Part shown: positions 13,185 through 38,082 of the stretch, in pieces
How the letters are laid out: every line of letters begins with the position of its first letter
Numbering within the stretch: the stretch's first letter is position 1
NCBI RefSeq assembly: GCF_913777145.1
Contig: NZ_CAJYPS010000029.1
Coordinates: 1-64,000, forward strand
Length of the DNA: 64,000 nt
Direction: 5' to 3'
Source of the DNA: an uncultured Roseateles sp.
Lineage (GTDB): Bacteria > Pseudomonadota > Gammaproteobacteria > Burkholderiales > Burkholderiaceae_C
The notes under the pieces: model-generated
What the model was told of the DNA's origin: nothing
The model's input: the letters and a program-made list of their open reading frames with translations, nothing else
Databases searched by the model: none
Position numbers and translations under genes: made by a program

Positions 13185-13613
13185 TCAGAAGGGCTTGACC
13201 GTCACCAGCACCACGATGGCGGTGAACAGCAGCACCGCGGTCTCGTTGTAGACCCGGAACCAGCGGTGGCTGCGGCGGTTGGCGAGCTGCTCGAACTTGC
13301 GCAGCAGCCGGCCGTTCGCGTGGTGATAACCGATGGCCGCCACCACCAGCGCCAGCTTGGCATGCAGCCAGTGGCTGCCGGCAAAGCGCGTGGCGCCGAA
13401 GCCCAGCCACACCCACAGGCCCAGCAGCAGCGCCACGATCATCAGGCCGGCGCTGAAGCGGTGCAGCTTGTGCGCCATCAACAGCAGACGCTCACGCTCG
13501 GCATGGCTCTCGGCCGGCACCATGGCCAGGTTCACGAAGATGCGCGGCAGGTAGAACAGGCCGGCAAACCAGGCCGCGACGAAGACGATGTGAAAGGCTT
13601 TGACCCAGAGCAT
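13185..13613 (-). CDS. hemJ: Protoporphyrinogen oxidase HemJ
   Basis: 142-residue integral membrane protein with four helices. The HemJ signatures are KAFHIVFVAAWFAGLFYLPR (conserved histidine near residue 8) and HAKLALVVAAIGYHH in the third helix. HemJ oxidises protoporphyrinogen IX to protoporphyrin IX, the penultimate haem step. Close to hemB, which supports the assignment over the related CopD family. The start at 13613 removes an unlikely proline-rich leader. Confidence 0.88.
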   Translation of the reverse strand: MLWVKAFHIVFVAAWFAGLFYLPRIFVNLAMVPAESHAERERLLLMAHKLHRFSAGLMIVALLLGLWVWLGFGATRFAGSHWLHAKLALVVAAIGYHHANGRLLRKFEQLANRRSHRWFRVYNETAVLLFTAIVVLVTVKPF

Positions 13614-13685
13614 GTCCGCATTATGGGCAGCCCCCGGAGCGCCCGGCGGGGAGTCGGGCCAAGGCCTTGCGCACCGCGCGAGGCC

Positions 13686-13712
13686 AAAAAAAACCCCGGC
13701 CAAGAGCCGGGG
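13686..13712 (-). terminator. Intrinsic terminator of the hemJ-hemB intergenic RNA
   Basis: On the minus strand CCCCGGC, a five-base loop and GCCGGGG (13712-13694) are followed by eight consecutive T (13693-13686). It is a textbook rho-independent terminator. No protein gene ends immediately upstream on that strand, which means it terminates a non-coding transcript. Confidence 0.9.
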
Positions 13713-13799
13713 CGAGAAAGCCTTACCGCTGTCATCACGCTAAGGCTCCTGCTCAGGGAGGAAAAGCAGGGGACAACCACCTTGCGGCTATCATCCACT
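13686..13799 (-). ncRNA. Candidate trans-acting small RNA with an anti-Shine-Dalgarno loop
   Basis: A roughly 113-base transcript unit with its own promoter and terminator and no ORF. Predicted structure, 5' to 3': a small GCAA-loop hairpin; a stem CCTGCT/AGCAGG (13770-13765 with 13753-13748) presenting the loop UUUCCUCCCUG; a perfect 7-bp stem AGCCTTA/TAAGGCT (13747-13741 with 13725-13719); and the terminator. The exposed UCCUCCC is complementary to ribosome-binding sites, a feature of several bacterial riboregulators. The start base is estimated from the promoter. Inferred from sequence only. Confidence 0.75.
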
Positions 13800-13803
13800 G
13801 GCA

Positions 13804-13832
13804 AGTTTAGCGTGCTTGGGCGGCAGCGTCAC
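13804..13832 (-). promoter_or_regulatory. Sigma70 promoter of the candidate small RNA
   Basis: Minus-strand GTGACG (13832-13827) and TAAACT (13809-13804), each matching four of six consensus bases, separated by exactly 17 bases. Initiation is expected around 13799-13796. It points away from hemB and toward hemJ, but the terminator at 13686 stops it before hemJ. Confidence 0.6.
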
Positions 13833-13842
13833 GAATAAATGA

Positions 13843-14919
<1,077 letters not shown>

Positions 14920-37997: not shown

Positions 37998-38082
<85 letters not shown>

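Follow-up and report, generated by a model that had tools for sequence, protein, structure and literature searches.

The region between hemJ and hemB in the 64,000-nucleotide stretch of Roseateles sp. DNA analysed here (the window) raised the question of whether a regulatory RNA is encoded there and, if so, to which family it belongs and on what it may act. The preliminary description had placed in it a minus-strand promoter with a 17-base spacer, two stems and a terminator with eight T; all were found at that place, the promoter being weak. The elements of the locus were as follows.

13827-13832 (-): candidate -35 hexamer GTGACG, 4/6 of the consensus, variable among relatives and missed by the threshold scan
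13804-13809 (-): -10 hexamer TAAACT, inside GCTAAACTTG; CTAAACT is conserved in the genus copies
13686-13797 (-): predicted sRNA transcript of about 112 nt, from the fold, its 5' end placed by inference 7 nt past the -10
13771-13796 (-): 5' hairpin GGAUGA-UA-GCC(GCAA)GGU-GG-UUGUCC, 9 pairs, largely outside the Rfam model
13748-13770 (-): anti-Shine-Dalgarno (anti-SD) hairpin CCUGCU-UUUCCUCCCUG-AGCAGG, loop 13764-13754, from the RF02837 match and covariation
13720-13746 (-): middle hairpin GCCUUA...UAAGGC with the GUGAUGACAGCG region, from alignment and covariation
13686-13713 (-): intrinsic terminator, 9-pair stem and U8, from the terminator scan
13686-13773 (-): RF02837 anti-hemB match, 64.8 bits, model 1-81/81
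13185-13613 (-): hemJ (UPF0093), the next downstream gene, same strand
13903-14919 (+): hemB (ALAD), the divergent neighbour

The preliminary description had named no family, and the Rfam search supplied one: the RNA scored 64.8 bits against a gathering cut-off of 49.5 for RF02837 (anti-hemB), and the window element is a further member of this already catalogued family. Gathering scores were not reached for Spot 42 RF00021 (17.2 vs 80 bits), RF02278 (toxic sRNA / double-hairpin RNAs; 25.7 vs 50 bits) or RF02869 ncS25 (26.7 vs 46 bits). The only other Rfam match in the window at gathering scores was a tRNA gene at 38001-38082 (-). The closest named HemB was that of Pelomonas sp. Root1237 (88%), in a scan that possibly did not contain the species itself, which makes the Roseateles/Pelomonas group a probable source (Roseateles being placed in the family Sphaerotilaceae).

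According to the available text of PMC5688073, anti-hemB is another name of ncS04 of Burkholderia cenocepacia, a 105-nt RNA whose 3' end was confirmed by RACE, which was among the Northern-blotted RNAs and whose level did not change significantly across the seven conditions tested. In B. pseudomallei, anti-hemB occurs as a table entry (PMC3521395). When the same 5'-end reasoning was applied to the B. ambifaria locus, a length of 109 nt was obtained, 4 nt off that of ncS04, the two being different species. With RF02837 and ncS04 the window RNA shared a covariance model score over the cut-off, the anti-SD hairpin, the terminator and the divergent arrangement with hemB that the name anti-hemB implies. 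The window stem was CCUGCU/AGCAGG, whereas the model consensus is CCCGCU/AGCGGG; hemJ stood in the window where engB stands beside the sRNA at Burkholderia anti-hemB loci; and, unlike RF02837 elsewhere, 1-6 above-cut-off copies were present per genome in the window's genus. According to the available part of a review (PMC6321483), B. cenocepacia RNAs including Bc7 were found via Hfq co-purification, and Bc7 has hemB as predicted target, with Salmonella RybB given as its homologue. From its name, Bc7 is probably the Rfam 'Burkholderia RNA 7'.

The transcript (13797-13686) folded with -53.5 kcal/mol (z = -4.77) into four hairpins, a fold that 0/200 shuffles equalled; the full interval of the preliminary description, promoter included, folded differently (z = -2.56, 3/200 shuffles as good). 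The structured small RNA with an anti-SD loop that had been proposed is supported, and the loop is conserved. In DNA form, the anti-SD stem was CCTGCT/AGCAGG with the loop TTTCCTCCCTG at 13764-13754 (-), and the terminator, rated strong, had the stem CCCCGGC/GCCGGGG followed by eight T at 13693-13686 (-). The region had also been described as about 113 bases without an ORF, which did not hold in the strict sense: the mechanical ORF list contained a 90-aa minus-strand ORF from TTG (13532-13804) that runs through the sRNA. Coding by this ORF is disfavoured because one-base indels occurred among relatives and the stems covaried.

Covariation was examined in alignment A1 of 72 hemB-linked sequences (71 distinct), drawn from 85 hemB-linked rows that had been selected by the exact core TCCTCCCTGA, with 13 near-identical genus rows left out. 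Standard pairs filled 95.7% of the given-pair cells, and structures slid along the alignment dropped to 62% or less. Among the 71 distinct sequences, two-sided changes occurred at 9/14 pairs and, for all five covariation measures, 0/500 shuffles came up to the real alignment; the exchanges in the anti-SD stem were CG-to-UA and CG-to-AU. The 5' hairpin showed two-sided changes at 5/9 pairs within the window's group (28 sequences, 26 distinct); for the whole structure in this group, four of the five measures gave 0/500 shuffles and the fifth (further pair types) 13/500. In alignment A3, the outer hairpins did not align. Ahead of the anti-SD stem, a 31-base segment was folded, and its best fold ended within 1 base of the stem in 67/72 sequences, with a median z of -2.2 (44/72 below -1.5).

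The invariance of the loop in A1 is partly by construction, the exact 10-mer having been the selection criterion. The preliminary description had counted a lack of conserved stems or loop in related genomes against itself; the stems covaried, and CCUCCCUGAGC was retained in 5 Rfam matches that did not contain the exact 10-mer. Out of 36 named hemB loci that did not have the exact core, 16 were put through Rfam, of which 1 gave a match and 15 none. Homologues from the wider class were more variable, e.g. CCCUCCCUGGGC. A second C-rich stretch, CUCCCCUUU, was seen in the terminator loop of other order lineages (e.g. L112, L126, and L133) and was absent from the window copy.

RF02837 was found in 20/20 genomes of the genus, with 58 above-cut-off matches (counted from the listing; 1-6 per genome), and in each genome one above-cut-off copy was hemB-linked (L001, L004-L022). 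The window's own genome had 2 matches above the cut-off and 1 weak one. In the order, matches occurred in 154/200 genomes, above the cut-off in 133. In the class, which we take to be Gammaproteobacteria in GTDB usage, 108/229 genomes matched at E <= 1e-3, of which 12 were above the cut-off, with controls positive in 3/14; at 1e-6, 61/229 matched (counted from the listing). The genus, order and class listings also held many below-cut-off matches. In the phylum sample, 5/200 genomes matched at 1e-6, all from the same order or class (controls 0/14).

The paralogues in the genus sat in varied contexts, and no HemB match was found in the loci of the 10 examined. In 4 of these 10 non-hemB paralogues (L023, L024, L025, and L029), an upstream TCCTACA was followed 20-21 nt on by CTACATT. 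These four, which also had a short 5' hairpin (UUCG loop in L023 and L025), possibly have a common regulator. L216 and L220 each had two paralogues; the genes they surround encode an E1-E2 ATPase (rich in histidine by eye), an FTR1/cytochrome protein and a NicO nickel transporter (Pfam, L216 proteins), which looks like a metal island. An IstB_IS21 gene adjoined the paralogue at L232. Four tandem homologues lay within about 740 bases at L271 (G388:C33:13148-13886), and tandem pairs occurred in G324, G365, and G367.

Because of its neighbours, a link to haem or metal metabolism had been suggested for the RNA. However, in many lineages engB adjoined the sRNA no less regularly than hemB did: in 41/85 hemB-linked loci both lay no more than 500 bp from it. 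Where engB lay on the hemJ side, it ran toward the sRNA on the opposite strand, and in the window's genus hemJ occupied the place held by engB elsewhere. Among 20 class loci from other orders, engB and polA were both within 500 bp in 8, with the sRNA between them, at least one of them in 16, and neither in 4; as these loci were taken from the best-scoring rows of the class search, the rates do not carry over to the full set of 108 matching genomes. The EngB query from L255 and E. coli YihA both passed the NCBIfam YihA/YsxC model (49% identical), and L255 PolA passed DNA polymerase I models. A role in haem or metal metabolism is not supported, and the haem link was set aside because of the engB linkage in these 41/85 loci and because the examined paralogues did not have hemB; the class homologues likewise stood beside engB and/or polA (16/20).

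The promoter region also differed among lineages. In the window, the spacer between GTGACG and TAAACT was 17 bases and 8/12 positions matched the consensus; the threshold promoter scan listed no promoter at the sRNA locus. CTAAACT was present in 19/20 hemB-linked genus copies, the exception being L004, read from the listing as TAAAAT. The genus copies share a conserved block, CCGCTCAAGCGCGCTAAACTTG, ahead of the sRNA, the window version being CCGCCCAAGCACGCTAAACTTG at 13823-13802 (-); the -10 of this block resembles a sigma-S type.

Counted from the core, the sigma-E-type motif GGAACY stood between -75 and -45 in 24/30 top order loci and in 8/47 named rows (expected fraction 0.014 in each case), the 47 rows including one coding-sequence coincidence (L107), and in 0/20 genus hemB copies and 0/10 genus paralogues. 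A sigma-E-type -35/-10 pattern was found in 17/20 class loci (expected 0.0075 per locus). Sorted by context, GAACY at -68 to -50 occurred among 90 hemB-linked loci in 0/37 hemJ-adjacent, 28/45 engB-adjacent and 4/8 other loci; GGAACT of L034, at -53, falls inside the GGAACY count and outside this one. The motif was missing at 17/45 engB-linked loci, including named Burkholderia, Paraburkholderia, Caballeronia, Cupriavidus, and Pandoraea. Where relatives had the sigma-E-type promoter, it stood at a fixed distance from the sRNA.

ErsA of Pseudomonas aeruginosa is, in the available text of PMC8575079, PMC7565897 and PMC6321483, a sigma-22-dependent RNA of the polA-engB intergenic region. Twelve engB loci of the family of G379 were inspected, of which 7 had the GAACTT-N16-TC promoter together with a C-rich terminator loop no more than 420 bases from engB and 5 had no such RNA within that distance; G379 itself, picked by PrrF, had a different gene after engB. 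We infer that these loci belong to Pseudomonas and that the RNAs at the 7 loci are ErsA. Relatives of the window RNA shared with the ErsA-like RNAs at 7/12 loci the engB-adjacent position and orientation, the GAACTT-N16-TC promoter and a 5' hairpin, and class and many order homologues had the C-rich terminator loop as well. In contrast, none of the 7 ErsA-like RNAs had the UCCUCCCUGAG hairpin, and the window copy had neither sigma-E-type promoter nor engB nor C-rich terminator loop: it is located between hemJ and hemB, not polA and engB, and a sigma-22/sigma-E-type promoter was found in 0/20 genus hemB copies. A search at E <= 1e-6 with the RF02837 model, not an ErsA model, gave no match in G379 and G452, two genomes of Pseudomonadaceae type; sequence comparison thus did not show homology with ErsA, nor with Spot 42.

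In E. coli K-12 the order is polA, spf (Spot 42), yihA (engB), with spf pointing to yihA; this polA-sRNA-engB locus has the orientation seen in the class homologues, whereas E. coli spf does not contain CCUCCC. The ErsA-like reading is drawn from the sigma-E-type promoters and the engB/polA neighbourhood of the relatives, together with the Spot 42 locus order.

In Burkholderia sRNAs, CU-rich stretches that remain unpaired are predicted to mask ribosome-binding sites, and the Bordetella RNA S17 directly represses one target in a reporter test (available part of preprint PMC11722255). The RNAs of RF02278 (ncS03/05/27/62, to which S17 is similar) and RF02869 (ncS25) resemble the window RNA in these stretches as far as their descriptions were available, whereas the window RNA scored below both cut-offs. 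The alphaproteobacterial ar14 RNAs combine an unpaired, ultraconserved anti-SD motif with variable stems; they have three hairpins each with CCUCCUCCC, whereas the window RNA has one loop UUUCCUCCCUG (available text of PMC10746234, in whose reference list the name 'cuckoo RNA' occurs with ar14 RNAs).

The 11-mer complement of the loop region occurred 79 times in the 20 genus genomes, compared with 4 for the reversed control; in the window's own genome, it occurred only at two sRNA genes. The 9-mer complement had 13 sites in that genome, two of them the sRNA genes. The best site was a 12-nt complement located 8 nt before the ATG of an ABC-transporter permease gene (Pfam PF19300; no NCBIfam model above the cut-off); as a conserved target it was rejected, being absent in 16/16 orthologues (longest match 4-7 nt). 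A Sel1-repeat protein gene with CAGGGAGGA 3 nt before its ATG recurred in six genus genomes, which may reflect no more than a strong Shine-Dalgarno sequence. The type CAGGGAGGA-(A/G)CGGAG(C/T)TTC-ATG was found at four recurrent sites. Complement searches of the own genome, the genus genomes and orthologues found no conserved target for the window RNA. The invariant loop fits a model of pairing with the Shine-Dalgarno sequence because that sequence is itself constant.

The window RNA most likely acts in trans and occludes ribosome-binding sites, and the trans-acting regulator already proposed is probably correct. It would be made from a sigma-70-like promoter and assisted by Hfq, and its CCUCCC loop would pair with the Shine-Dalgarno region of several mRNAs, by which translation would be blocked.

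Other explanations were weighed against this one. A regulator of hemB, whether through promoter interference in cis or through pairing in trans, is what the family name suggests: about 100 bases separate the -10 of the sRNA from the predicted start codon of hemB, the linkage to hemB is old, and hemB is the predicted target of Bc7 in the available part of the review cited above (PMC6321483). However, the RNA stays clear of the hemB reading frame, no GGAGG was present in the 40 bases ahead of the listed hemB start, class homologues adjoin polA/engB, and the 10 examined genus paralogues had no HemB match, and we regard such a regulator as unlikely. We consider it distinctly improbable that the RNA is the 5' part of the hemJ transcript, a cis-acting leader or attenuator with a conditional terminator, given that engB converges on the sRNA from that side on the opposite strand in 41/85 hemB-linked loci and that the genus paralogues occur in varied contexts; such a leader would agree with the start of hemJ 72 bases downstream on the same strand, and with L033 and L052, where the sRNA stays by hemJ and hemB is about 1.5 kb off.

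That the locus is a mere terminator region with a conserved stem and no regulatory RNA function is very improbable: the terminator is strong and adjoins hemJ, but there are three further hairpins, loop and position are conserved, and a transcript was detected in B. cenocepacia (available text of PMC5688073). The explanation judged best, and held to be probable, is the joint one of a trans-acting RF02837 sRNA gene with an SD-pairing loop, belonging to an old engB-linked family that was rewired in the window's lineage.

As to the origin of the family, comparison with relatives suggests an old envelope-stress RNA family whose promoter changed and whose copies multiplied in the window's lineage. 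Anti-hemB would probably be the betaproteobacterial branch of an ancient engB-linked sRNA whose promoter elsewhere is of the sigma-E type, as that of ErsA is in Pseudomonas; the window's lineage would have lost both the sigma-E motif and the adjacent engB and dispersed copies over the genome. More tentatively, and with somewhat less than even confidence, anti-hemB, ErsA and the Spot 42-locus sRNA may be descendants of one engB-linked sRNA of a beta-/gammaproteobacterial ancestor, originally an envelope-stress (sigma-E) RNA with an anti-SD loop; in the window's lineage this RNA would have left sigma-E control, acquired a sigma-70/sigma-S-like promoter and given rise to a set of dispersed siblings.

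In the available parts of the literature searched, no function was reported for anti-hemB, and the neighbour after which it is named may not be its target. That literature, largely outside subscription papers, contained no link of anti-hemB to sigma-E, engB, ErsA or Spot 42 and no report of its multiplication in the window's genus. New from the comparison are the engB/polA neighbourhood and the sigma-E-type promoters in relatives, and their absence together with multiple copies in the window's genus. The comparison points to sigma-E as the probable regulator of anti-hemB elsewhere, indicates how the RNA probably acts and gives it a locus in common with Spot 42 and ErsA, and the question of whether these three form one family becomes testable. 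The window's lineage would provide a case of an sRNA that switched its promoter and multiplied yet kept its loop.
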